From a virus, in the IMG/VR virus record IMGVR_UViG_3300031999_000181, positions 1-24,884 of that record: DNA of 24,884 nucleotides; one strand, 5' to 3'. Each line of letters opens with the position of its first letter. Positions within the stretch are counted from its first letter, which is position 1. Positions 4,705-16,483 of this stretch are shown here, in pieces. Both the position numbers and the translations under genes were made by a program. The notes beneath the pieces were generated by a model. The model worked only from the letters and a program-made list of their open reading frames with translations, made no database searches and was not told the DNA's origin.

Positions 4705-5205
4705 ATGGCTTACAACACAATTAAACTGAAAAAGTACCTCGATGTAATCGAAGAGTACGCTGCTGCTGCTACCTTATATCCAGGAAATCTCTTGGAAATA
4801 ACTAGCGCAGGCACCGTGCAAAAGCATAGTGGAGCTGGTAAAACCGCTCCTTGCTTGTTTGCACTCGAAGATGCTCTGCAGGGCAAAACCATTGCGGATG
4901 CATATTCTGCTGGGGATAAAGTACAGGTATGGGTTGCTGTACCTGGTGAAATCGTTTATGCTCGGTTAGCCGATGAGGAAACCGTAGTCATAGGGGATTT
5001 TGTAGAATCTAATGGATCAGGACAGCTCCGCAAGGTAGCCCGTTCTGCTGAAAGTTGGGAATCTGCCGACTCACAGACTGCTAAATCGTTATACGATAAG
5101 CACGTTGTTGGTCAAGTACTTGCCGCCCTGGATACTACGTCACTGTCTACCGATGAGTCTGAGGCTCGTCCTACAGAACAGTTTGTAAAAATAAGGATTG
5201 TCTAA
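4705..5205 (+). CDS. Putative capsid decoration protein
   Basis: 166 residues, predicted mostly beta-strand, with no membrane segment or signal peptide. Sequence marks include YPGNLLEITSAGTVQKHSG, then AGDKVQVWVAVPGEIVYARLA and GDFVESNGSGQLRKV, a pattern found in small proteins encoded just before major capsid genes. Such proteins bind the outside of the mature shell and stabilise it. Strong Shine-Dalgarno site and higher GC than the sugar genes suit a protein made in many copies. It sits exactly between scaffold and capsid genes. The family is not certain; a head fibre base or other capsid accessory is the alternative. Confidence 0.6.
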   Translation: MAYNTIKLKKYLDVIEEYAAAATLYPGNLLEITSAGTVQKHSGAGKTAPCLFALEDALQGKTIADAYSAGDKVQVWVAVPGEIVYARLADEETVVIGDFVESNGSGQLRKVARSAESWESADSQTAKSLYDKHVVGQVLAALDTTSLSTDESEARPTEQFVKIRIV

Positions 5206-5224
5206 CGCTAAAAAGAGAATAGAA

Positions 5225-6358
5225 ATGGAAAATTTGAATGTAGATATTGTTGCGAATGGACAAGCCTTTGGAGATGTTGGTCATGTTTTACAGAACAACG
5301 GTAGACTTGATCTAGGTAAGATGCGTCCATTCTTGGCACAGGATAAGACTGGTAAATGGGGTGCCTATATGACCGTTTACCGTGGGGGCGATGTTAAGAA
5401 ACCTGCTAACTGGCAGACCGTTCCCCTGAACATCAACGCTGGAACTCTCCGTAGGGACGAGTGGAAAAAGCTTGATGATGCTGTTTACGAAGTTTCTCGT
5501 CAGAGACTTGGCGGATGGGATGATGTAATCTCTAAAGGTCTTGTTTATAATCTTGCTAACGGTATGGGAACAACCATGCTGGAATGGCATGATATAAGTG
5601 AGGGTGGAAACGCCGTAATGACGATGGATGGAGTAACGAGAGGTCTGAACGACCGTATTCAGTATAAGTATAACTATTTACCAATCCCGATAATTCATTC
5701 GGATTATGAGATTAACGCTAGGGAACTGGCTACCTCTCGTAATATGGGAAATGGTTTGGATACTACTATGGCAGAACGTGCTGCTCATAGGATTATGGAG
5801 TTCAAAGAAGATATGCTGTTTACTGATACTACTTATGCTTACGGGGAACTGGACGCTAGAAGTAGGAACAAGATTTACAGCTACTTGAACTTCCCTGATC
5901 GTAACACCGTTTCGATAGGAACGCATTGGGACGATCTGGATGTCGATTCAGAAGCCTCTACAGGTGGAAGTAAAATACTGGAGGATGTTTTCAAGATGAA
6001 ACAGGCTAGTATGAGTGCCTACCACTATGGTCCATGGACACTGTATATTCCGTCTGCTTACGAACTGGTCATAGATAGGGATTATGACAGGACTACTCCT
6101 GGCAAAACTATCCGTGAAAGAATGCTGCAGATAGCTGGTATTACTGCTATTAAAGTTATTGACAGGCTTCCTGCTAATAACGTACTTTTAGTACAGTTGA
6201 CCAGCGATGTAGTTCGTATCGTTCGTGGTATGGGTATGCAGAATATCGAGTGGAATACTGAAGGTAATATGATTACCAAATACAAAGTGATGACCATTGA
6301 AGTTCCTCAGTTACGTTCTGATCAGAACGGTAAGTGTGGTATTGTTCATATGGCATAA
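5225..6358 (+). CDS. Major capsid protein (HK97 fold)
   Basis: I start this at ATG 5225 (377 residues, MENLNVDIVANGQAF). The frame is open back to TTG 5198, but that start would overlap the previous gene, and the AAGGA before it is too close. The size, the place after scaffold and decoration genes, and the C-terminal half suit an HK97-fold major capsid protein. That half has an A-domain-like stretch (PWTLYIPSAYELVIDRDY), then IRERMLQIAGITAIKVIDRLP, and ends VPQLRSDQNGKCGIVH, resembling encapsulin-like phage capsid proteins. Hundreds of copies form the shell. High local GC (34 of 60 bases at 5401-5460) fits strong expression. A hairpin follows the stop. The role is firm; the subfamily is tentative. 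Confidence 0.8.
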   Translation: MENLNVDIVANGQAFGDVGHVLQNNGRLDLGKMRPFLAQDKTGKWGAYMTVYRGGDVKKPANWQTVPLNINAGTLRRDEWKKLDDAVYEVSRQRLGGWDDVISKGLVYNLANGMGTTMLEWHDISEGGNAVMTMDGVTRGLNDRIQYKYNYLPIPIIHSDYEINARELATSRNMGNGLDTTMAERAAHRIMEFKEDMLFTDTTYAYGELDARSRNKIYSYLNFPDRNTVSIGTHWDDLDVDSEASTGGSKILEDVFKMKQASMSAYHYGPWTLYIPSAYELVIDRDYDRTTPGKTIRERMLQIAGITAIKVIDRLPANNVLLVQLTSDVVRIVRGMGMQNIEWNTEGNMITKYKVMTIEVPQLRSDQNGKCGIVHMA

Positions 6359-6365
6359 ATAAAAT

Positions 6366-6380
6366 TGTCTAATCAAGACA
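6366..6380 (+). terminator. Hairpin after the major capsid gene
   Basis: TGTCT-AATCA-AGACA forms a five-base stem with a five-base loop, eight bases after the capsid stop, and is followed by a T-rich run (TTTCATTT). It is too weak for a classic terminator, but it may be an attenuator or mRNA end. It shares CTAATCAAG with the element after the tail tube gene. Confidence 0.3.
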
Positions 6381-6401
6381 TTTCATTTAAATTAAAAAAT
6401 T

Positions 6402-6752
6402 ATGGAAAGAAATAGTAGTGAAAGGATTCGTTGGAAAAAAATAGGAGGTGGTTCATTAACATTGCTTGGAAAGTTTATCAAACCTAATGATATATTTACC
6501 GCTTATCCTCATCAAATACCTAAACAATTCAGAGATGTTATTATACCTTTGGATGAAATTAGGGAGCAGTCAGTTCCTAAAGTAGAACCTATAAAAACTA
6601 CTTATAAAGTAGTTCCTAGAGGAGCTAGTAAATCTATGTTTGACGTAGTGAACGAGGCAGTTACTAATGAAGAAGGCATACCCAAACGTATTAACGATAA
6701 ACCTCTTACAAAAGAAGTGGCGGAACAACTTATTCAAGACTTGGCAAAATGA
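6402..6752 (+). CDS. Small virion-region protein of unknown function
   Basis: 116 residues. It starts MERNSSERIRWKKIGGGSLTL and contains GKFIKPNDIFTAYPHQIPKQFRDVIIPL, a compact beta-like module of a kind encoded just after capsid genes in several phages. The second half is lysine-rich and ends in a helix (LTKEVAEQLIQDLAK). There is no membrane segment. It has no Shine-Dalgarno site; its leader is an A/T run, like that of the tail chaperone gene. It overlaps the first sugar gene by ATGA, so it is either the last head gene or the first of the cassette. A head or connector accessory is possible, but I do not assign a function. Confidence 0.55.
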   Translation: MERNSSERIRWKKIGGGSLTLLGKFIKPNDIFTAYPHQIPKQFRDVIIPLDEIREQSVPKVEPIKTTYKVVPRGASKSMFDVVNEAVTNEEGIPKRINDKPLTKEVAEQLIQDLAK

Positions 6753-7450
6753 TATGGAGTGTCCCTAGAATGTGGGCAGGAGGAGATGTTTGGATACTTG
6801 GGGGAGGTCCATCAGTACCTAAACAATTTAGTATTCCCGAATCGTTGGTACATGCGGTTGTAGCAGGGACTTCTCCGCCAAGCGTCTATTCTCCTTATAT
6901 GTCTTTTTTACACGACAAACATGTTATAGGGATAAATGTAGCGTATTATATTGGAGATTGGATAGATATGGTATTTTTTGGGGATGGTTCTTTCTTTACA
7001 AAGCATAAAGATAATCTCGCTCGATTTCCTGGACTAAAAGTATCGTGTGATCCTAATTGTAATAAAATACCATGGATTAAATATCTAGTGAGAGATACTT
7101 CTCATCCCAAAGGAATTTCTATTAAAGCGGGAGCAGTTAGTTGGAATTGTAATAGTGGATCTGCAGCTATAAGTGTAGCTGTACAGGCAGGAGCAAAAAG
7201 AATTATACTTTTAGGTTTTGATATGAGTTTGGATAATAATATACAACATTGGCATAATATGTATGGGAAGCCTACTGATCCTAAGACGGTATCAAAATCA
7301 TTATTAACATTTGCTAGTCATTTATCGGGATTTCCTGTAATTGCACAAGATGCTAAGAGATTAGGAGTGGAAATTATAAATGCTTCTCCTAATAGTACTA
7401 TTCCACAATTTCCTAAGTTTTCTGTAAAGGAATTGATAAATAATACGTAA
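6749..7450 (+). CDS. DUF115/Maf-like glycosyltransferase
   Basis: 233 residues. An N-terminal nucleotide-sugar type loop is visible (VWILGGGPSV, about 14-23), then GINVAYYIGDWIDMVFFGDGSFF, and a conserved SGSAAISVAVQAGAKRIILLGFDM stretch at 136 onward, ending GVEIINASPNST. This pattern occurs in DUF115 proteins, including the Maf transferases that attach nonulosonic acids to flagellin serine/threonine, and is reminiscent of GT42-type sialyltransferases. If it acts similarly, it could join the first or a capping sugar to a protein. It is short compared with Maf proteins, so it would be only the catalytic core. It starts within the ATGA overlap with the previous gene and leads the cassette. Substrate is unknown. 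Confidence 0.6.
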   Translation: MIWSVPRMWAGGDVWILGGGPSVPKQFSIPESLVHAVVAGTSPPSVYSPYMSFLHDKHVIGINVAYYIGDWIDMVFFGDGSFFTKHKDNLARFPGLKVSCDPNCNKIPWIKYLVRDTSHPKGISIKAGAVSWNCNSGSAAISVAVQAGAKRIILLGFDMSLDNNIQHWHNMYGKPTDPKTVSKSLLTFASHLSGFPVIAQDAKRLGVEIINASPNSTIPQFPKFSVKELINNT

Positions 7451-8244
7451 TGAATACGATACGATTAATGGGTGGATTAGGTAATCAAATGTTTCAGTAT
7501 GCTTTAGGGAGAGTCCAGCAAGAACATGGTATAGAGGTTCTCTATGATCTTACCTGGTTTGATCGTGGAAGGATTCCTAAAAGATTATATACTTTAGATA
7601 AGTTTGAAATTAGTATATCTACTACATATAGAGGTAGGAATGGGTATCATAAATATGTAACGGATAAGAAAAAAGGTATATTAGACCTGGATTTACTTTT
7701 ATTGGATAATACTTATTTTGAAGGATATTGGCAATACTTAGCTTATTACAAGGATTATTTACCTATATTTGAGAAAGAATTTAGGGTTAAACCAGAGTTT
7801 TATTCTAAGGAATATATTTACTGGAGGGATCAAATTAAAACTCGTATTGAATCAGTAGCGATTCATGTACGTAGGGGAGATTACATAGGACATAATGGTT
7901 TTCACGAACTTCCTTTCTCTTATTATTTAGAGGCTTTGCAGAATACTCCAGGCAGTATATTTATATTTAGTGACGATATTCCTTGGTGTAAAGATACTTT
8001 TAAAGAAAGTTATTTTGATCGGGATGTAAATTTTGTACATTGTAAAGATTATTTGGATTTAGAATTAATGAGTTTTTGTAATCATAATATTATTTCTCAT
8101 AGTACATTTAGTTGGTGGTCGGCTATGCTAAATAGAAAGGATAATAAAAAAGTAGTTGCTCCCAAGTATTGGATTACCCTTGAAAAAGATAGAGCTACTT
8201 ACGATAGTAAACTTCACTATCCTGAGCAGTGGATTAAGATATAA
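7450..8244 (+). CDS. Alpha-1,2-fucosyltransferase, GT11 family
   Basis: 264 residues, close to the usual length for bacterial GT11. All hallmark motifs are present: GGLGNQMFQYA at 8-18, IHVRRGDY at 138-145 (the arginine-rich GDP-fucose site), and ISHSTFSWWSAML from about 215. GT11 enzymes move L-fucose from GDP-fucose to a galactose-type acceptor in alpha-1,2 linkage and act in the cytoplasm or on the inner membrane face. No GDP-fucose synthesis genes are nearby, so the donor would come from the host. The gene starts on the last base of the preceding stop. Base composition is very AT-rich (11 GC of 60 at 8041-8100). This is the most secure sugar gene here. Confidence 0.92.
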   Translation: MNTIRLMGGLGNQMFQYALGRVQQEHGIEVLYDLTWFDRGRIPKRLYTLDKFEISISTTYRGRNGYHKYVTDKKKGILDLDLLLLDNTYFEGYWQYLAYYKDYLPIFEKEFRVKPEFYSKEYIYWRDQIKTRIESVAIHVRRGDYIGHNGFHELPFSYYLEALQNTPGSIFIFSDDIPWCKDTFKESYFDRDVNFVHCKDYLDLELMSFCNHNIISHSTFSWWSAMLNRKDNKKVVAPKYWITLEKDRATYDSKLHYPEQWIKI

Positions 8245-8247
8245 GTA

Positions 8248-8997
8248 ATGTATGATATATTAATTACAGTAGCAGAAAAAGATTTTAACAAACTACGGTT
8301 TGTTATAAAATCTATTTATACTAATCTAGAAGGATTTAAAGACATTATAGTTATAGCAAACACTACTTTGCCCTATCGTTATCGTATATCTAGTATAAAG
8401 TACCTTACGGATAACGATATGTTTTACGTTGATCCCGCATTGTTTGAAGGCTACGCAATTAAAAGACGAGGTTGGTATATACAACAATTTATTAAACTCT
8501 TTCAACAAGTAACCTCTGATGAATATTTAGTAGTAGATGCCGACGTTTATTTCAATAGGAAGGTTGAAGTTATAAAGGATGGTATTCCTGTATTTTTATT
8601 AGGAAAGGAGCAATATCATAAACCTTATTTTATGTATACTGATATGATGTTTGGTTTTGATAGAGTTTATCCTTACTCGTTTATTAATGAGGTTATGTAT
8701 TTTAAACGGGAATATATAGAACATATGGTAGCTTCCAAAGAGATGAAAACGTCTGATTTTATAAAAGATTCTATTAATATTATAAATTTTATTAATCACC
8801 CTACTTCTAGTTTTTCTGAATATGAAACCTATGGTAATTATGTAACTAAGTATTTTCCAAACGCTTATACTTATCAGTATATAAAAACGCATTCCGTAGG
8901 AGTAAAACGTATTTGGGAAGAATTTGAAGTTCATCGTTTTATAAATAAGTTTGAAGGTCAGGATTATGATAAATTAGCTTTACATACATGGTTGTAG
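8248..8997 (+). CDS. GT-A type glycosyltransferase, DUF6492-like
   Basis: 249 residues. The N-terminus reads as a GT-A fold start (YDILITVAEKDFNKLRFVIKSI). A GWYIQQFIKLF motif (about 75-85) and the metal-binding DADVYF at 97-102 follow. This combination is typical of DUF6492 glycosyltransferases, which are found in polysaccharide clusters and use a metal-bound nucleotide sugar. The C-terminal part, with an HPTSSFSEYETYGNY stretch, fits the same family. The donor and acceptor cannot be read from sequence. It begins three bases after the fucosyltransferase stop and overlaps the next gene by ten bases. Confidence 0.75.
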   Translation: MYDILITVAEKDFNKLRFVIKSIYTNLEGFKDIIVIANTTLPYRYRISSIKYLTDNDMFYVDPALFEGYAIKRRGWYIQQFIKLFQQVTSDEYLVVDADVYFNRKVEVIKDGIPVFLLGKEQYHKPYFMYTDMMFGFDRVYPYSFINEVMYFKREYIEHMVASKEMKTSDFIKDSINIINFINHPTSSFSEYETYGNYVTKYFPNAYTYQYIKTHSVGVKRIWEEFEVHRFINKFEGQDYDKLALHTWL

Positions 8998-9878
8998 TAT
9001 TGTTTCATAGTGGTAGGGGAGCATTACCTGAATATCAGGAGAGTATGTTTAAACAACTACGGGTGTTTAATCCTACTATACCCGTGTATTTTTTAACAGA
9101 CACCGAATTTTTAAATGATCCTATGTTTGAGAAATATTCAATAAAAGTAATAGATAAGGAAGGTTATTATGGAGTCAAGGTAGATTCTTTAGAAAGAATG
9201 TATGGTAGGAAACCTAATGATTTTTGGATGATAACTACTACTAGGTTTATTTATATAGAAAATTTTATACGGGAACGAGGTTTGATAGATATATATCATT
9301 TTGAAAACGATGTTATGGTTTATTACGATATACAGACTTTACATAATATGTTTTCCGCTTTATATCCTAATTTAGCGATTACCGTTGGAGGACCAGATAA
9401 AGCTATAACTGGATTTATGTATATTAAGAATTATCAAGCACTATGGAGTATGACACATTTCTTTGTTAATTTATTACGTAGATATGGACTAAAGGCGACT
9501 AAAGCCAAGTTTGGTATGGATATGGTAAATGAGATGACTTTAATGAAAGTTTACCATACTATGTTTCCTAAAAGGATGCCTTCCTTACCTATCCTACCTT
9601 TTGGGGAATGGAGTAAAGCGTATTTTTATTTTGATTCTATTTTTGATCCTGCTTCGTATGGGATGTTTGTAGGAGGAAATGCTCAAGAGAAAACTCCTGG
9701 TTGTAAACCAAAGGATCATTACATAGGACAATTATTAATAGAACATCCAGAGTACGAAGTTATTTGGAAAGAGGACGAGGAAAAGAGAAAAATACCTTAT
9801 TTTAAGTATAATGGTAAAGAGGTTAAAATAAATAATTTGCATATACATTCTAAGAATTTACATTTATATTTAAGTTAA
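8988..9878 (+). CDS. Putative GT-A-like glycosyltransferase
   Basis: 296 residues. It opens with a strand-helix pattern suited to a GT-A Rossmann fold (VVVLFHSGRGALPEYQESM) and has a DXD-like motif in YHFENDVMVY (E106-N107-D108), where glycosyltransferases bind metal and nucleotide sugar. After that come a GFMYIKN segment and, near the end, NLHIHSKNLHLYLS. This arrangement resembles uncharacterised transferase-like proteins in surface polysaccharide loci. Ten-base overlap with the upstream transferase gene and a one-base TAATG junction downstream place it inside the same transcript. No substrate can be assigned. Confidence 0.55.
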   Translation: MVVVLFHSGRGALPEYQESMFKQLRVFNPTIPVYFLTDTEFLNDPMFEKYSIKVIDKEGYYGVKVDSLERMYGRKPNDFWMITTTRFIYIENFIRERGLIDIYHFENDVMVYYDIQTLHNMFSALYPNLAITVGGPDKAITGFMYIKNYQALWSMTHFFVNLLRRYGLKATKAKFGMDMVNEMTLMKVYHTMFPKRMPSLPILPFGEWSKAYFYFDSIFDPASYGMFVGGNAQEKTPGCKPKDHYIGQLLIEHPEYEVIWKEDEEKRKIPYFKYNGKEVKINNLHIHSKNLHLYLS

Positions 9879-10543
9879 TGGGTTCTTATTTGGAACATAC
9901 GTTTGTTAAGCATATAGATCAAAAATCTATTAATACTATAATAGAATGTGGTAGTAGAGATTGTTTGGATGCTATTGCTATGAATGAGTTTTATGTTCCT
10001 AATATTATATATGCCTTTGAATGTAATCCAGAATCTATATACGTTTGTAAAGAAAATATTAAAGGTATAAAAAACATTAAGTTAATTACCAAAGCGGTAC
10101 ACAAAGATAATGGTAAAGTCGTTTTTTTCCCTACGGATATGGAAGCCTCTTTGGATAAGAATATAGGAGCATCTTCTTTACTTTGGCATAGGGATAATGA
10201 GAAAGAATTCAAGCAGAAAAGAATTGAGGTAGAAGGTATTCGATTAGATACTTTTATGGAAAAGCGTAATATATCTAAAGTAGATTTACTATGTATGGAT
10301 CTTCAGGGAGCGGAATATTTAGCGATAGAAGGGTTGGGAAAACGAATTAAGGATGTGCATTATCTTATTACTGAAGTAGCTTTTCGTAGTTTCTACCACA
10401 AGGATAAATTAGCGGAGGATATTGTACGGTTATTGGATCATAGAGGATTTAAGTTTATATCTTCTAATCATGATATAAATAGTCATAGCGGATTTGGAGA
10501 TGCTTTATTTTTAAATAAAAATTATGGATTGGATACAAGGTGA
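9878..10543 (+). CDS. FkbM-family methyltransferase
   Basis: 221 residues, normal for the family. The SAM-binding glycine motif is IIECGSRDCLDAI (21-33), the ribose-binding acidic motif is YAFECNPES (45-52), and the FkbM signature MDLQGAEYLAIEGLG sits from 140. FkbM enzymes are SAM-dependent O-methyltransferases, and in sugar clusters they methylate hydroxyls of glycan residues. Methylation could cap the chain or hide it from glycosidases. The start shares one base with the previous stop, and the end overlaps the next gene by twenty bases. The family is well supported; the sugar target is inferred from the neighbours. Confidence 0.85.
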   Translation: MGSYLEHTFVKHIDQKSINTIIECGSRDCLDAIAMNEFYVPNIIYAFECNPESIYVCKENIKGIKNIKLITKAVHKDNGKVVFFPTDMEASLDKNIGASSLLWHRDNEKEFKQKRIEVEGIRLDTFMEKRNISKVDLLCMDLQGAEYLAIEGLGKRIKDVHYLITEVAFRSFYHKDKLAEDIVRLLDHRGFKFISSNHDINSHSGFGDALFLNKNYGLDTR

Positions 10544-11249
10544 ACGGTTTATAGGATTGGCGGACAATAAGAAAATTTTCTATTGCCATACATACGACGT
10601 ACCTGGATTTTTACATCACCCACCAAAAGATGAATTTATTCTTATCTCCCATAATGGGGATCATTGTATTCATATTGGTTATAAAGTACCTAATAATTTA
10701 ATACATTGGTTCGCTCAGAATGTTAATCGCTCCCATCCTAAAATAGAATCTATTCCTATTGGTTTAGAGAATAACAAATGGTTCCCTAATCTAAAGAAAA
10801 GAGAGAAGATGGAAGCGAAGTTACGTACAAATAAGCACTTTCATAATCTTGTCTATATGTGTCATACAATAGATACTAATTTTAAAGAGCGAAAAGTTTT
10901 ATATGAAATGTTCGATGAAACCCCTTGGATTACAACCCATAGGAAGGAATTTTTTGATGATTATTTGGATAATTTATATAATCATACCTTTATGATTAGT
11001 CCCGCTGGTAATGGTTTAGATACGGTAAGAACTTGGGAATGTTTATATATGGGAACCTATCCTATCGAGAAACGGAATATTAATAATCAATTTTATACTG
11101 ATCTTCCAATATGTTTTGTAGATAATTGGGAGGAGATAACTGAAGAATTTTTAGATAACTGGTTGGTAGAAAATGCTAATAAAGAATGGAATATGGATAA
11201 AATATATTTTGAATATTGGAAAAATAAAATTTTAAATTATGATAAATGA
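10524..11249 (+). CDS. Exostosin/GT47-like glycosyltransferase
   Basis: 241 residues. The key feature is SPAGNGLDTVRTWECLYMG (159-177), a motif of GT-B type transferases related to exostosin and similar families, where this loop and the following glutamate contact the nucleotide sugar. Before it lies IGLENNKWFPNLKKREK, then NLVYMCHTIDTNFKERK, matching the linker strand order in such proteins. The protein is short, so probably only a reduced catalytic core is present. It overlaps the FkbM gene by twenty bases and the next gene by eleven. Donor and acceptor are unknown. A GT10-like relationship is the main alternative. Confidence 0.6.
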   Translation: MDWIQGERFIGLADNKKIFYCHTYDVPGFLHHPPKDEFILISHNGDHCIHIGYKVPNNLIHWFAQNVNRSHPKIESIPIGLENNKWFPNLKKREKMEAKLRTNKHFHNLVYMCHTIDTNFKERKVLYEMFDETPWITTHRKEFFDDYLDNLYNHTFMISPAGNGLDTVRTWECLYMGTYPIEKRNINNQFYTDLPICFVDNWEEITEEFLDNWLVENANKEWNMDKIYFEYWKNKILNYDK

Positions 11250-11838
11250 TCGTTATTTAAGGTACGTACAAGAACCGTATAAATTATCCTACATTTCTTA
11301 TATGAAAGGAGAACCTATTCATGCTTATAGTTCTCACCAACCTGTATTAATTCATATGTTAAATACTATTACCGAAGGGGATGTATTAGAATTTGGTATG
11401 GGTCATCATAGTACTCCTATCATGCATATTATTTGTACTATGCAAGATCGTAGTTTATTGAGTATAGATACAGATAAAATATGGTTTCGTAAATTTACTC
11501 GTTATATCTATGGGAAGCATACTGCAATGCATATAAATAAAAATGTACTTCTAGAACCATATCACGAATTTTATAAAGGAAAATATTCTATTATTTTTGT
11601 AGATGGAGCACCGGCAGAGATACGTCAACCTTTTATTGATGAGGTTCAGAACATAACGGATTATTTAATTGTTCACGATTCCGAGAGTATACCAAACGGA
11701 GTAGACGATGCATACCATTATAACTTCTCTATGTTTAAACATGTATTACATTTTAAAGGAGGACTTGCCCCTGGAACATCGGTACTTTCTAATTTAGATA
11801 AAATTGATGAGCGAATATTGGAAGTTTTTAAACAATGA
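11239..11838 (+). CDS. Rossmann-fold, methyltransferase-like protein
   Basis: 199 residues. A VLEFGMGHHSTPIMH segment (49-63) looks like motif I of class I SAM-dependent methyltransferases. It is followed by LLSIDTDKIW, which could be the acidic motif II, and IIFVDGAPAEIRQPFI, a typical motif IV strand ending in DG. The order and spacing suit a small methyltransferase, although the H56-H57 substitution after the glycine motif is unusual. Family assignment (Methyltransf_24-like) is tentative. In this cluster a second glycan O-methyltransferase is the natural guess. It overlaps both neighbours (11 bases upstream, ATGA downstream). Confidence 0.55.
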   Translation: MINDRYLRYVQEPYKLSYISYMKGEPIHAYSSHQPVLIHMLNTITEGDVLEFGMGHHSTPIMHIICTMQDRSLLSIDTDKIWFRKFTRYIYGKHTAMHINKNVLLEPYHEFYKGKYSIIFVDGAPAEIRQPFIDEVQNITDYLIVHDSESIPNGVDDAYHYNFSMFKHVLHFKGGLAPGTSVLSNLDKIDERILEVFKQ

Positions 11839-13109
11839 ATGAGCAAAGGACAATAGTATTGGTTTTACGTAGCGGAGGTGATTTTTCATTTCAGGACGTA
11901 GAACTTATTGTTGGGCATATCATTTCTAAATGGAGATCAAAAATACTTCCCCGAATTATTTGTTTATGGGATCAAGCTTCTATGGAATACGATTTAGGGA
12001 ATATACATTTAATTCCGCTTATTAACAATTTACCAGGAACGTGGGCTAGAATACAGTTGTACAGTCCTGAAATGGAAAAATATCGTCCTTTTCTATACGT
12101 AGATTTAGATACGGCTATTATACAATCTCTAGAAAATATATTTGATTTAATTACAGATCCAACTCAATTTATTACTTTGGAAGACTTTTGGCAAAAAGGT
12201 AAATTAGCAACTCCTTTAGTTTGGTTCCCTGTTAATTGTGCTAAGATAACGAAAGTTTATACTGCGTTTAGAAAGCCAGAAGGATTTCGTATGGATTACT
12301 TTTTACAAAAGCATATTAAGGCTGATAGGTTTTGGCAACAAATGACTAATTTTATAATTGATTTTAAATCAAATAAGAATGATTTGTTAATGGATTTACC
12401 TAAAGATACAATATTGGTATGTTTTCACGGTAAACCTCGTATCTATACGGCAGCAGGATATATACCTTGGGTTCGTATTTACGTAGGAACAAATTACGTT
12501 GCACCTACACTTGCTAATAAGGTTACGGTAATAATACCCTATAAAATAGATCGAGGATGGCTTAAAGACGCTGTAAACAGTGTTCCTAAAGGAGTTCAAC
12601 TTTTAATAAGTCAGGGAGAGGGTAATTGGCCAGAGAATTTTAATAAGGTTTGGGCTCAAGTAGAAGGTGAATATATTCGTTGGTTACACGAGGATGATAT
12701 GTTGACTTCTAATAGTATATCCGATTCGGTGAATGCTATGGATGATCGAGACGTAGATTTTATACACGGCAATGCTATTGAAATATATCAAGGTACCAAT
12801 AGAAGGAAATTTTGGAGGCCACGAACTCCTTATCCTACTGTAAAGGATATGCTTCAGAGAAATAGATTACATAGTGCTACTATGATGTATCGTAAAAGCG
12901 TATTTGATAAAGTAGGGTTATTAGATGAAACATTGACCCTTTCGGAAGAATATGAATTTAATATTCGTTGTTTAAAAGCAGGATTAAAGTTAGGTTATTG
13001 TGATTCTTTTTTAGCGTATTATCGTAGGCACGCACAACAGAAAGTACGACTATTAAAAAAACTAGATATATTAAAAGAGCATAATTTACTTTTAAAGCGA
13101 TACGTATGA
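11835..13109 (+). CDS. Two-domain glycosyltransferase: GT8-like plus GT2
   Basis: 424 residues in two transferase-like halves. Residues 1-225 include TWARIQLYSPEM and the DXD motif YVDLDTA (D90, D92), as in GT8-type proteins or related nucleotide-diphospho-sugar transferases. From N228 a second domain starts NKVTVIIPYK, contains WLHEDDML (E286-D287-D288), and ends with EEYEFNIRCLKAG and an AYYRRH motif, all typical of GT2. Each half probably adds a sugar, so a single polypeptide could lay down a disaccharide unit. Both metal-binding motifs look intact. ATGA overlaps join it to both neighbours. Sugar types cannot be told. Confidence 0.8.
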   Translation: MNEQRTIVLVLRSGGDFSFQDVELIVGHIISKWRSKILPRIICLWDQASMEYDLGNIHLIPLINNLPGTWARIQLYSPEMEKYRPFLYVDLDTAIIQSLENIFDLITDPTQFITLEDFWQKGKLATPLVWFPVNCAKITKVYTAFRKPEGFRMDYFLQKHIKADRFWQQMTNFIIDFKSNKNDLLMDLPKDTILVCFHGKPRIYTAAGYIPWVRIYVGTNYVAPTLANKVTVIIPYKIDRGWLKDAVNSVPKGVQLLISQGEGNWPENFNKVWAQVEGEYIRWLHEDDMLTSNSISDSVNAMDDRDVDFIHGNAIEIYQGTNRRKFWRPRTPYPTVKDMLQRNRLHSATMMYRKSVFDKVGLLDETLTLSEEYEFNIRCLKAGLKLGYCDSFLAYYRRHAQQKVRLLKKLDILKEHNLLLKRYV

Positions 13110-13834
13110 CAGATAAATTACCTATATTAGTAACTGGTTGTGCCAGAAGTGGAACTAGCTCCATCGCAGGAATAATTAATATATGTGGTGCTTTTGGAGG
13201 AAATATGGCCGTGGGGAAAAGTAATAGTCGGGGAATGTTTGAAAATAGTAGAATTAGAAATACTTTGGTAAAACCTTATTTATTACGTATGGGAGCTGAT
13301 CCAGAAGGGCAATATCCTTTACCCTTTTCTATTTCTATTCCTACTATTTGGAAGCAAGAAGTAGATCAAATTATAATAAGTGAAGGCTATAAGGGGGGTG
13401 ATTGGATGTATAAGGACACCCGAATGGGTCTTATGTGGAAAGTATGGAATTATGCTTATCCTAATGCGAAATGGGTTATCGTACGTAGGCGTACGGGAGA
13501 TGTAATACAATCATGTATTAAAACAGGTTTTATGAAAGCCTTTAAGAATCAGGATAATTTAAAAGCAATAAATTTAGATTCAGAAGAAAAGGCGTGGTTA
13601 TGGTGGATTCACGAATACGAAAAACGGTTTACCGAGATGGTAATGGAAGGGGTGAATAGTAAAATTGTTTGGCCAGAGCGTATGATAGATGGAGATTTTA
13701 GGCAATTATATGAACTTATAGAGTGGTTAGGGTTAAAATGGAATCCTGAAGCTATGACACTTATTGAATCTTTATTATGGGGAAATAAACAAAAAAGAAA
13801 GGAGGCTACATATGGCACGGGTAACGTCGGATGA
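13106..13834 (+). CDS. PAPS-dependent sulfotransferase-like protein
   Basis: 242 residues. The N-terminal TGCARSGTSSIA (10-21) matches the 5'-phosphosulfate binding loop of sulfotransferases. WVIVRRRTGDVIQSC from W123 gives the 3'-phosphate site, with R128 and S136 at the expected eight-residue spacing. Such enzymes transfer sulfate from PAPS to sugar or protein hydroxyls. As last gene of the sugar cassette it may sulfate the finished glycan. No PAPS-making genes are present, so supply would depend on the host. A P-loop kinase is less likely because the loop is GxARSGTS rather than GxxxxGKS. Its C-terminal codons overlap the next gene by 23 bases and contain that gene's ribosome site. Confidence 0.72.
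   Translation: MTDKLPILVTGCARSGTSSIAGIINICGAFGGNMAVGKSNSRGMFENSRIRNTLVKPYLLRMGADPEGQYPLPFSISIPTIWKQEVDQIIISEGYKGGDWMYKDTRMGLMWKVWNYAYPNAKWVIVRRRTGDVIQSCIKTGFMKAFKNQDNLKAINLDSEEKAWLWWIHEYEKRFTEMVMEGVNSKIVWPERMIDGDFRQLYELIEWLGLKWNPEAMTLIESLLWGNKQKRKEATYGTGNVG
13798..13805 (+). promoter_or_regulatory. Shine-Dalgarno site of the first neck gene
   Basis: AAAGGAGG lies inside the sulfotransferase frame, six bases before the ATG at 13812, and shows that translation begins there rather than at the upstream TTG 13764. Confidence 0.7.
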
Positions 13835-14192
13835 AGTAAAGGAAATTCTAAAGAGTTCTGCTTTAACGGGAGATCAGATTGACCCGTTTATACTAGGAGC
13901 GCATCTATATGTTAATAAAGTATATGCAGATGATACCTCTATGGGAAAAACCCTATTAAGGGAAATAGAGAGATGGTTTACGGCACATATGATAGCTAGT
14001 AGCATAGAACGTACCACTACTGACGAAAAGATAGGGGATGCTGCGGTTATTTATACGGGTAAGTTTGGAGAGGGTTTGAAATCTACACCGTATGGACAAA
14101 TGGTATTACAACTAGATGTTTCGGGACTAATGTCTAGAGCTACGGGTAAACAACCAGCAAATATAACGGCTATAACAAGCTTTGACGAATGA
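13812..14192 (+). CDS. Putative head-tail connector protein
   Basis: 126 residues from ATG 13812 (MARVTSDEVKEIL). It is mostly helical: an N-terminal DEVKEIL helix, a helix in DPFILGAHLYVNKVY, then LLREIERWFTAHMIASS. Small helical proteins in this position often join the portal ring to the neck (gp6- or DUF4054-like), and the sequence fits that type without a decisive motif. It is the first virion gene after the sugar cassette and overlaps the sulfotransferase by 23 bases and the next gene by ATGA. The strong ribosome site restores efficient translation here. Role inferred from size, fold and order. Confidence 0.6.
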   Translation: MARVTSDEVKEILKSSALTGDQIDPFILGAHLYVNKVYADDTSMGKTLLREIERWFTAHMIASSIERTTTDEKIGDAAVIYTGKFGEGLKSTPYGQMVLQLDVSGLMSRATGKQPANITAITSFDE

Positions 14193-14602
14193 GTATAGGA
14201 ACTTTTATAAACGGAGCATGTACCCAAAGAGCGGTCTATTGGGGAAGTCCAGTGGATGACGGGTACGGAGGGAGAACCTACGCTGATCCTGTAGAGATCG
14301 CTTGTCGTTGGGAGGATGTGGTTCAAATATCGGGAACCATTACTGCCGTTCAATTAGTAGGTTTTACCGAAGTGTCTAGAGCGGTGGTATTTGTTACTCA
14401 GGACGTAGATGAGAATGGGATAATATATAATGGTACTTTAGAATCCCTGTCTGCGTATATGGGAAGTGATGGGGAACTAGTTCCCGCAGACGTTCCCGAC
14501 ACGGCTAATATTCATATTATAAAGCGATTTTATAAAGTCCCTGCGTTAGGTTCGACCACTGAGTTTTTACGGAAAGCGTTTTTAACACCTTGGCTATCAT
14601 GA
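14189..14602 (+). CDS. Putative head closure (stopper-like) protein
   Basis: 137 residues, predicted beta-rich. It includes RAVYWGSPVDDGYGGRTYADPVEIACRWED and ends with HIIKRFYKVPALGSTTEFLRKAFL. Small beta-barrel proteins following the connector are usually stoppers that close the portal channel after packaging. The CRWEDV strand with preceding GYGGRTYADP is a feature I associate with such neck proteins. ATGA overlaps on both sides give a coupled neck set. It could instead be another neck component; I see no decisive motif. Confidence 0.5.
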   Translation: MSIGTFINGACTQRAVYWGSPVDDGYGGRTYADPVEIACRWEDVVQISGTITAVQLVGFTEVSRAVVFVTQDVDENGIIYNGTLESLSAYMGSDGELVPADVPDTANIHIIKRFYKVPALGSTTEFLRKAFLTPWLS

Positions 14603-15144
14603 GAATAGTAGGAGTAAGAGGCATAGAAAAGGTAATGAGAGGTCTTAATAGAGAGCTACGGACTTTCAAGTATGTCTCTGTAGCAGGACTGGTAAAGGCT
14701 ACAGCAGTAATTCGTAACGCTACTGAAAGCCAACCACCCCTTACTCCTGTAGATATAGGAAACTTGAAAGCTAGTTGGTTAGTGGTTACTTCTAGAGGAG
14801 ATATTAGAGTAGGGCGTAGTCCTGCTTTTAAAGCTGCTCGCAGAAAAAGAAAAGGAGAAGGTAGACCTAGAAAAGTGGATATAGAAGCATTACGTAGGAA
14901 TCATACTATGACTATAACTAATGCACAATCGAAAGCTATGTCATATGGATACCCTGCCGTTACGTTCGGGTATAGTGCTAACTACGCTTCCATAGTACAC
15001 GATAAGCAGGGAGTAGCTCATTGGAGTAGAGCAGGTTCTGGAGAGCAATGGTTCTTACGGGCTTTGGAACGGAATAAAGGATTGATGCTAAGTAAGATAG
15101 CGAATTCAAGTAGAATACCAAAAAGGAGAGGATCAAATAAATGA
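14599..15144 (+). CDS. HK97 gp10-like tail-completion protein
   Basis: 181 residues from the ATG at 14599, which overlaps the previous stop as ATGA (the frame is open back to TTG 14590). It has features of HK97 gp10-like neck proteins: TPVDIGNLKASW in the middle and NYASIVHDKQG near the C-terminus, and it is basic (a RKRKGEGRPRKVD loop). These proteins form the ring connecting the neck to the tail, or complete the tail top. The following gene is tail terminator-like, the normal order. The lysine/arginine-rich loop is longer than in the smallest members. Confidence 0.7.
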   Translation: MRIVGVRGIEKVMRGLNRELRTFKYVSVAGLVKATAVIRNATESQPPLTPVDIGNLKASWLVVTSRGDIRVGRSPAFKAARRKRKGEGRPRKVDIEALRRNHTMTITNAQSKAMSYGYPAVTFGYSANYASIVHDKQGVAHWSRAGSGEQWFLRALERNKGLMLSKIANSSRIPKRRGSNK

Positions 15145-15563
15145 ACGCACCTTCAGTAGATATAGCAGCGATGCTTACCGCCGATTCTAGTTTAAATCTA
15201 GTAATCGCTACGAATATGTTCATAGGAAAAGAACCCGTAGCACCTCATAATAGTATCACTATATTAGATATGGAAGGTCGTGCCCCTCAACTTACATACG
15301 CTGGACAAGGGGAGGCGTATTATTATCCCTTGATACAAATCCGAGTACGAAATAAAGATTATCGTACTGGATGGAATTTAACACATAATATAATGGAATC
15401 GTTACACGGTCGTGCAGGCGAAACGTGGAATGATGCTTTATATACAGTTATCTACTGTTCTGGTGGACCCGCTCTACTGGATTGGGATGATAACGAATTG
15501 GTAACTTTTATTGTTAATTTTAACTTACAGAGGCGTCCAAGTACGGATTCTTCTGGTAATTAA
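15141..15563 (+). CDS. Tail terminator-like protein
   Basis: 140 residues, mixed alpha/beta. It has a helix in SVDIAAMLTADSS, strands around NSITILDMEG and YPLIQIRVRNKDYRTGWN, and a helix in NLTHNIMESLHG. This fits the small tail terminator group (minor capsid PF12691-like) that stops tail tube growth and binds the neck. It lies directly before the tail tube gene, as expected. Its final residues are PSTDSSGN, a DSSG motif also seen at the tail tube terminus. ATGA overlap with the upstream gene. Family assignment is tentative. Confidence 0.55.
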   Translation: MNAPSVDIAAMLTADSSLNLVIATNMFIGKEPVAPHNSITILDMEGRAPQLTYAGQGEAYYYPLIQIRVRNKDYRTGWNLTHNIMESLHGRAGETWNDALYTVIYCSGGPALLDWDDNELVTFIVNFNLQRRPSTDSSGN

Positions 15564-15565
15564 AA

Positions 15566-15573
15566 AAGGAGGT
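15566..15573 (+). promoter_or_regulatory. Shine-Dalgarno site of the tail tube gene
   Basis: AAGGAGGT, six bases before the ATG at 15580, chooses this start over the longer open frame that begins upstream inside the terminator-like gene. Confidence 0.75.
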
Positions 15574-15579
15574 AAGATT

Positions 15580-15999
15580 ATGGCAAGTTTGGCAGTGTCT
15601 GGTGTAGGTAGTCAATTTCTAAAGGGATCTGCTGCGTTAGCGGAGATTACTAATATCACTGGACCATCTATGACTAGGGATTTCATCGATGTTACATCGT
15701 TGGATTCTGAAGATGGCTACCGAGAGTTTATTACGGGATTTAGAGATGCGGGAACGATCTCTCTTAATATGAACTTTACGGAAGACAGTTATGCGGTAAT
15801 AAAATTGGACTTTGAAAGTCCTGTTGCACAGACCTACTCGGTTATATTAGGTAATTTGGAAAATACTACCTTTACGTTCCAGGGTTTGGTCACAGAATGT
15901 CCTTTAACTATTCCTGTGGATGATAAAATATCCGTGGATGTAACTATCAAAATTACTGGAAAGGTAACTATGGTAGGTGTGGATAGTTCTGGTTCGTAA
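15580..15999 (+). CDS. Major tail tube protein
   Basis: 139 residues from ATG 15580. The stretch GPSMTRDFIDVTSLDSEDGYREFITGF followed by RDAGTISLNMNF is typical of siphovirus tail tube proteins of the lambda gpV type, as is the beta-rich remainder. The tube is a stack of hexameric rings through which DNA passes. It follows a strong Shine-Dalgarno site and is followed by the chaperone pair and the tape measure, the standard order. No sheath protein is present, supporting a non-contractile tail. The last residues are VDSSGS, a likely exposed tail end. Confidence 0.82.
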   Translation: MASLAVSGVGSQFLKGSAALAEITNITGPSMTRDFIDVTSLDSEDGYREFITGFRDAGTISLNMNFTEDSYAVIKLDFESPVAQTYSVILGNLENTTFTFQGLVTECPLTIPVDDKISVDVTIKITGKVTMVGVDSSGS

Positions 16000-16009
16000 T
16001 TTTTTCAAA

Positions 16010-16030
16010 CCTAATCAAGGATTTTTTTTA
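16010..16030 (+). terminator. Weak hairpin with T-run after the tail tube gene
   Basis: CCT-AATCA-AGG, extendable by A-T pairs after one mismatch, is followed by ATTTTTTTTA. It carries the same CTAATCAAG core as the hairpin after the capsid gene. A partial terminator or mRNA 3' end is possible; stem strength is low. Confidence 0.35.
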
Positions 16031-16057
16031 TTATAAACAATTAAATACAAACTAATC

Positions 16058-16483
16058 ATGGGAAATTTTTTAGATCGTGCAAAACTTTTGCAAAAAGAAG
16101 AAATTAAAATCTTAAAGGTAGATTTACCGAGTGGAGATTTTGTTTATGTACGGCAGATGTCTGGACGGGAACGGGATCAATTCGAGCAGTCCTTACTGAA
16201 ATCAGTAAAGAACGCTAAAGGGGAAACAACTTTTGAACAATCATTAGATGATTTTAGGGCAAAATTAGCCGTAGCATCTCTTTGTGATGAACAAGGAAAT
16301 TATCTTTTAGTCGCTAGGGATATTCCAATGTTGAGTCAGAATATGACGGCTACTTCGTTGGATAAGATTGTAACGGAATCTCAGAAACTTAATAGTATAT
16401 CAGAAACGGATAAGGAGAATTTAGTAAAAAACTCCGTAGCCGACCAAGTCGGCAATTCCAATTCCGTCTCTGCAGAGAATTAG
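16058..16483 (+). CDS. Tail assembly chaperone, short form (gpG-like)
   Basis: 141 residues. It starts MGNFLDRAKLLQKEEIK and continues to VDLPSGDFVYVRQMSGRERDQFEQ, the style of small tail chaperones that coat the tape measure and guide tube polymerisation. The tail end of the frame, after a slippery site at 16426-16432, is serine- and asparagine-rich and is bypassed in the longer product. It has no Shine-Dalgarno site; the leader is A/T-rich. Its place between tail tube and tape measure is the normal gpG position. Confidence 0.75.
   Translation: MGNFLDRAKLLQKEEIKILKVDLPSGDFVYVRQMSGRERDQFEQSLLKSVKNAKGETTFEQSLDDFRAKLAVASLCDEQGNYLLVARDIPMLSQNMTATSLDKIVTESQKLNSISETDKENLVKNSVADQVGNSNSVSAEN

Follow-up and report, generated by a model that had tools for sequence, protein, structure and literature searches.

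A candidate virion glycan-building cassette with exchangeable enzymes between the capsid and neck genes of an uncultivated tailed phage

The algal giant virus PBCV-1 makes the N-glycan of its capsid protein Vp54 with its own enzymes (A075L, A064R and A061L), and mutations in these genes define antigenic classes (PMC11571054, PMC9614988). A075L, the founder of family GT114, adds xylose to fucose of this capsid glycan (PMC11571054). Among tailed phages, the capsid and tail-tube subunits of mycobacteriophages bear glycans, and capsid glycosylation can hinder antibody recognition (Freeman 2023, as cited in PMC12619734 and PMC12691614); the F1 mycobacteriophage Maravista has two putative glycosyltransferases (GTs; PMC11256854). 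Maf enzymes attach nonulosonic acids to Ser/Thr residues of flagellin by O-glycosylation (PMC11339370), and FlmG carries a separate substrate-binding domain next to its GT domain (PMC7591256). Here we analyzed the virus record IMGVR_UViG_3300031999_000181, a metagenome-only sequence of 24,884 bases from an uncultivated tailed phage (hereafter the window, which means this whole stretch). Ten consecutive genes between its major capsid gene and its first neck gene probably encode a cytoplasmic, late-expressed pathway with which the phage puts a changeable glycan onto a virion protein of its own.

The genes of the window are arranged in the order of portal, head morphogenesis, protease/scaffold-like, decoration, major capsid, cassette, connector, tail and tape-measure-like. 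The cassette is flanked on the left by the gene for the major capsid protein (phrog_771, E 3e-20) at 5198-6358 and on the right by the first connector gene (13812-14192; phrog_302, E 0.003), whose start (about 13812) and AGGAGG site fall within the 3' end of the last cassette gene; the cassette genes and both flanking genes lie on the + strand. In between, nine near-gapless open reading frames (ORFs), termed g1 to g9, fill positions 6749-13834. Adjacent ORFs overlap by 1-20 nt; the single exception is the pair g2 and g3, which are separated by 3 nt. The GC content is 0.40-0.44 outside the cassette and about 0.29-0.33 inside. Promoter-like sites in the cassette are not enriched (37 against 48.7 in shuffled sequences), and internal terminators are fewer than in the shuffles. 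A preliminary description of this DNA had already recognized the nine genes as one set between capsid and neck genes, which proved real; its left boundary missed a co-segregating gene. The true unit begins at 6402, one gene before g1, with a small ORF of 116 amino acids (aa) at 6402-6752, because this ORF is swapped as part of the cassette, shares its last 4 nt with g1 and adjoins g1 in 59 of the 60 distinct capsid loci of relatives that have enough downstream sequence.

Comparison with L001, a near-identical phage, revealed the swap. In DNA, the two phages share 98%-100% identity over the capsid gene, the structural genes upstream of it and the first two neck genes, whereas the stretch from the small ORF through g9 drops to 74%-84% identity, with synonymous divergence (dS) of 0.6-1.5. 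Identity falls past about 6320 and regains >99% past about 13,790, and the left recombination breakpoint (about 6320-6400) lies in, or just beyond, the capsid gene's 3' end. The simplest reading of these alignments is that the entire block, the small ORF included, was exchanged by recombination in the flanking genes. This pair is the only clean whole-block exchange found among near-identical pairs; a second contig (L006/L130) has the window version, being 99.96% identical from 10,196 onward. Each cassette enzyme is under purifying selection: between the window and L001, the ratio of nonsynonymous to synonymous divergence (dN/dS) is 0.08-0.21 across all nine genes and 0.12 for the small ORF. 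Given these ratios, the 71%-84% identity of all nine genes to their L001 counterparts, and the recurrence of the same gene order minus g7 in L138 at 43%-63% identity, the cassette is not an artefact of gene calling. Separately from the cassette exchange, a second tract divergent from L001 spans 15141-16350 of the window and starts in the n4/tail-tube genes (88% aa identity and dS 0.72 for the tail tube), and the gene at 14590-15144 has dN above dS (0.030 against 0.022), with few changes.

The unit is a family-wide feature of the locus. A capsid-alignment scan yielded 270 relatives, of which 80 were kept; a g1 scan yielded 531, of which 80 were kept, and a g8 scan 47. Both the small ORF and g1 are present in 60 of the 60 capsid loci, and their junction is an overlap of 4 nt in 34 cases and of 1 nt in 11, together 45 of the gaps. 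With g1 as the bait, the small ORF was found in 76 of 76 loci and the capsid gene within reach in 74; the remaining two contigs end there. Gene content between g1 and g9 varies among relatives. The cassette interval ranges from 1.0 to 10.8 kb (median 6.7) in the 44 complete cassettes, 42 of which have a GC content below that of their flanks. In the minimal variants (L102, L118 and L126), the interval is reduced; in L102, the small ORF and g1 alone precede the connector, and the capsid is 93%-96% identical to those of relatives with bigger cassettes. The pairwise distances of the portal, small ORF and g1 correlate with those of the capsid (0.70, 0.64 and 0.48, respectively), against 0.27 for g2, 0.19 for g6, 0.09 for g9 and 0.00 for g8. 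Thus the latter genes have been exchanged, while the small ORF and g1 co-travel with the virion genes. A docking protein and a Maf-like initiator fixed beside the capsid gene, with the glycan-building enzymes swapped as a block, would amount to coat switching throughout the family, a proposal on which we are evenly balanced. If true, near-identical capsid genes would go with different sugar coats, and with an enzyme family common to algal giant-virus capsid glycosylation.

Neither the cassette nor the small ORF was found in the region examined of three isolates that are more distant capsid relatives (Brevundimonas MaInes, Halorubrum Hardycor1 and Klebsiella KpV2811), and no DNA near-match to the window was found among isolated phages. 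Among about 85,000 prokaryote species genomes, a capsid relative occurs in just one, the aforementioned L138, a contig in a Spirochaetota metagenome-assembled genome. This single binned viral contig hints weakly at Spirochaetota as the host. A signal peptide encoded at L138 3543-3989, ending in LMAQ, gives the impression of being Bacteroidota-like despite the Spirochaetota bin. The isolated and culturable Pseudomonas phage IME307 (L136 7992-9935) has g1-like and methyltransferase-annotated genes in its capsid-neck region and is a possible laboratory model.

The first enzyme of the cassette, g1 (6749-7450), is a putative initiating protein GT. Its AlphaFold2 model (predicted local distance difference test (pLDDT) score 92.6) resembles the structures of Maf (5mu5; VIA Z 15.0) and Cst-I (2p2v; VIA Z 12.5), and Foldseek matched it to the GT42 sialyltransferase Cst-II (E 1e-4). 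By sequence profile it falls in phrog_4603 (E 5e-31), the family of phage P1 PmgO. We classify g1 as Maf/GT42-like by its modelled fold, and not as a family member. One TGA stop was counted inside 5 of 14 g1 matches (L046, L036, L075, L052 and L038); ORF calls show open g1 frames there, and the stops probably reflect match edges.

Two further enzymes point to fucose. The product of g2 (7450-8244) is a GT11 fucosyltransferase (PF01531, E 2e-20; 73.8 bits against a gathering score of 23.9). That of g6 (10524-11249) matches the A075L structures 8avq, 8q8i and 8asa (phmmer E 1.2e-38 over residues 55-240; profile E 5e-59). Residues Asp73, Arg158, Arg208, Glu211 and Gly203 of A075L correspond to D46, R123, R169, E172 and G164 of g6, which are invariant in 27 of 27 members. 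Accordingly aligned, g6 keeps the catalytic base (D46) and the phosphate-binding arginines (R123 and R169) of A075L, as well as its sugar-contacting positions Asp73 and Gly203. On this homology g6 belongs to GT114, with uridine diphosphate (UDP)-xylose as the predicted donor and fucose as the predicted acceptor. Furthermore, among the 38 complete cassettes that the capsid bait recovered, GT114 is present in 14 of 15 with GT11 against 0 of 23 without (p 1.6e-9), and guanosine diphosphate (GDP)-L-fucose synthase-like genes occur in five cassettes, all five with GT11 (p 0.019), both p-values being made optimistic by the shared descent of the relatives. Other genes intervene between GT11 and GT114, and GT114 is clustered with homologs of GT11, g3, g4 and g5 in unrelated phages too (e.g., L147, L178, L194 and L208). 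This coupling fits a step in which a pentose would follow fucose, the sugars being those suggested by the enzyme families. A literature search returned no relevant paper on GT114 in phages, and none uniting FkbM, sulfotransferase, glycosyltransferase, phage and virion.

The remaining enzymes would extend and cap the chain. The product of g3 (8248-8997) is a probable GT-A glycosyltransferase (DUF6492, E 1e-4, just under the cut-off), whose DxD motif at 97-99 is kept in 13 of 15 members and is E-x-D in the remaining two. Its neighbor g4 (8988-9878) has an E-N-D motif at 106-108 that is invariant in 16 of 16 aligned members, lacks any match in Pfam, PHROGs, NCBIfam or PDB sequences, and is confined to cassettes with g3 (7 of 7 against 0 of 31); from its motif, it probably represents an undescribed GT family, likewise of the GT-A type. 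A two-domain GT is encoded by g8 (11835-13109), which combines a phrog_1962 domain with a GT2 domain and keeps D90-x-D92 and E286-D-D288 in 28-29 of 29 members. Unrelated phages, too, carry homologs of g1 and g8 at a short distance from each other, namely P1 (L139 3593-4252 and 5441-6148), where the two genes, pmgO and pmgQ, are labelled putative morphogenetic genes, and Citrobacter phage phiNP (L141 5983-7806). The product of g5 (9878-10543) is an FkbM methyltransferase (PF05050, E 3e-19; TIGR01444 above the cut-off), and that of g7 (11239-11838) resembles class I S-adenosylmethionine (SAM) methyltransferases, with a weak profile match to the O-methyltransferase 3ntv (E 0.012) and E51, G53, G55 and D122 invariant in 13 of 13 members.

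The last enzyme, g9 (13106-13834), is a sulfotransferase-superfamily protein. Sulfotransfer_3 is matched by 43 of 44 homologs, with E 1.6e-10 at best; taken by itself, the window copy scores under the cut-off. A profile match to TPST1 has E 0.003. Residues R14, G16, R128 and S136 are present in 44 of 44 members and K103 in 43, with R128 and S136 lining up with an Arg and a Ser of TPST1. From the roles in TPST, we take these residues to be the 5' phosphosulfate loop (R14/G16), the catalytic Lys (K103) and the Arg and Ser that bind the 3' phosphate of 3'-phosphoadenosine-5'-phosphosulfate (PAPS). The conserved PAPS-binding residues suggest that g9 probably sulfates the glycan. These assignments bear out the roles given in the preliminary description, which had named a DUF115/Maf-like protein (g1, by fold), a GT11 enzyme, an FkbM methyltransferase, a second methyltransferase-like protein (g7), a two-domain GT and a sulfotransferase-like protein. 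It had also observed that donor-sugar synthesis genes are missing, which holds for the window cassette; some relatives' cassettes do encode GDP-L-fucose synthase or GDP-mannose dehydratase. Nothing was found in support of a gut origin, or of the mimicry of mucin that it had put forward as speculative; a literature search for the IMG dataset numbers gave no hit, and the sugars are named from enzyme family only.

The universal first gene of the unit is the small ORF. Searches of PDB sequences and with Foldseek gave no known fold for the small ORF product (model pLDDT 78, predicted template modelling score 0.40). In six relatives (L100, L101, L103, L110, L114 and L125), its N-terminal domain recurs as part of a longer, fused polypeptide that looks like an enzyme; in L110, its fusion partners are g1-like and FkbM-like domains. 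Because of these fusions, we propose that the small ORF product is a docking module, or adaptor, that would carry the enzymes to a virion protein. Long fused polypeptides of 705-1108 aa (L110 3084-5375, L101 12180-14297, L091 3585-6911 and L100 13097-15928) combine several glycan-modifying domains, some including the small-ORF domain. It is possible, but rather unlikely, that the virion is glycosylated with the small ORF protein itself as the acceptor, a decorated minor head protein. As a universal partner of g1 that directly follows the capsid gene and is co-exchanged with the cassette, it would suit such a role. Its Ser/Thr content of 8.7% is not high, the enzyme fusions fit docking better, and its translation signals differ from those of head proteins: Shine-Dalgarno (SD) sites are absent from the window small ORF and present in only 3 of 37 homologs, against 65 of 71 capsid and 70 of 72 decoration genes. 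More broadly, SD-like sites precede 314 of 623 virion genes (56 of 59 for the tail tube) and 19 of 359 cassette genes; the enzymes and the small ORF are therefore probably low-copy products within the same operon.

Other targets, and the absence of any, were also weighed. GT11, FkbM and sulfotransferases are found in bacterial surface polysaccharide pathways too, and the cassette might remodel the host surface, for serotype conversion or superinfection exclusion, by cytoplasmic enzymes acting on host precursors. Phage glycosyltransferases are indeed known to alter host serotype (PMC12619734). However, strongly hydrophobic segments are absent from all ten unit proteins of the window, which are predicted to be soluble, and among 366 ORFs of the 44 cassettes not one was found to encode a polytopic membrane protein, be it a flippase, a polymerase, a ligase or a membrane-spanning GT, which makes a lipid-carried host surface glycan unlikely; the flippase and membrane GT that mark serotype-converting (gtr-type) cassettes are thus missing. 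In every relative, the cassette lies within the operon of capsid and neck genes, and a lysogenic benefit is unlikely given the single capsid relative among prokaryote genomes. We consider a host-surface target quite improbable. Glycosylation of phage DNA bases, a hypermodification against restriction, has a precedent in virus-encoded GTs that can modify DNA (Pyle 2024, as cited in PMC12619734), yet it appears extremely improbable here: no thymidylate synthase/hydroxymethylase family gene was found in 14 large relatives (58-78 kb; the control of this search was positive in nine genomes), g1, g6 and g9 look like enzymes that modify proteins or glycans, and the whole set lies among virion genes. 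That the cassette is a low-GC passenger, inserted by chance and of little effect, draws on its GC content below the flanks, on the minimal variants and on the P1 homologs pmgO and pmgQ, which are not needed for plaque formation in the laboratory (PMC10695390). Such dispensability would equally fit an optional coat, and the purifying selection on all nine genes, together with the retention of the small ORF and g1 in every relative, leaves a passenger very improbable.

Self-decoration of the particle, as the preliminary description had suggested, is thus the best-supported reading, because of the capsid-neck placement in 60 relatives, the soluble proteins with no polytopic member, the Maf fold of g1 and the GT114 family of g6. 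We propose a putative model as follows. The cassette would be expressed late, together with the virion genes, and the small ORF product would dock the enzymes onto one phage structural protein. Initially, g1 would set the first sugar on this protein from a host nucleotide sugar, and g2 would attach fucose, onto which g6 would put a pentose, probably xylose. The chain would be lengthened or branched by g3, g4 and g8, and the outer sugars finally methylated by g5 and g7 and sulfated by g9. Swapping of the enzymes between g1 and g9 among phages would make the coat a changeable surface trait.

Several points weigh against this model. The virus comes from metagenomes only, and the evidence for the glycan, the modified virion and the acceptor is at the level of genes. 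Without donor-sugar genes of its own, the cassette would rely on the host for GDP-fucose and for a pentose donor. The sequence similarity of g1 to known families is weak, the only hit to a curated family profile being MptE-like (E 0.002, below the cut-off), and g3 and g4 are called GTs from motifs only. The small ORF product could be the acceptor or a minor virion protein instead of an adaptor. In the acceptor pocket of A075L, Thr112, a rhamnose contact, aligns to E82 of g6 (Glu in 26 of 27 members), and the other rhamnose contact, His122, lies in a poorly aligned stretch. Since Thr112 aligns to Glu, the acceptor of g6 probably differs from that of A075L; Thr112 is specific to the A075L substrate, and GT114 membership does not require it.

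Virion glycosylation in tailed phages has been documented in a few mycobacteriophages and with few enzymes. The uncultivated group described here, with its 270 capsid relatives in one scan, seems to be built round such glycosylation, with a fixed slot next to the capsid gene, an invariant core of two genes and exchangeable enzymes. If the model is true, the phage surface would vary in a serotype-like manner, with possible effects on adsorption, persistence, neutralization or predation, and this variation would be testable across cassettes of otherwise near-identical phages. The cassette would also yield enzymes for the synthesis of fucose-pentose and sulfated glycans.

Comparison with the known systems places the cassette among them as follows. 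In phage P1, PmgO is a distant homolog of g1 (profile E 1e-15), and the g8 profile hits PmgQ with E 8e-19; unlike the cassette, the pmgO-pmgQ region lies away from the capsid genes, has no GT11, GT114 or sulfotransferase annotated, and lacks the small ORF. As in the Maf and FlmG pathways of flagellin O-glycosylation, where a structural protein under assembly is modified by soluble transferases of the cytoplasm, the cassette enzymes are predicted to be soluble and g1 has a Maf fold; the small ORF product, proposed as the substrate-binding part, would follow the logic of FlmG. The target there is bacterial flagellin, and the small-ORF domain is not a tetratricopeptide repeat. In contrast to the mycobacteriophage systems, nine enzymes, including methyl- and sulfotransferases, are assembled at one fixed locus in a diverse uncultivated group. 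The cassette differs from PBCV-1, an algal giant virus with dispersed genes, in being compact, in belonging to a tailed phage of a prokaryote, and in having a Maf/GT42-like first and a sulfotransferase-like last enzyme. It shares with PBCV-1 the virus-encoded, largely soluble GTs, the SAM methyltransferases that there cap the glycan (A064R domain 3 and A061L), and a GT114 enzyme, which in PBCV-1 serves a fucose-containing capsid glycan and which ties this phage to giant-virus capsid glycosylation.

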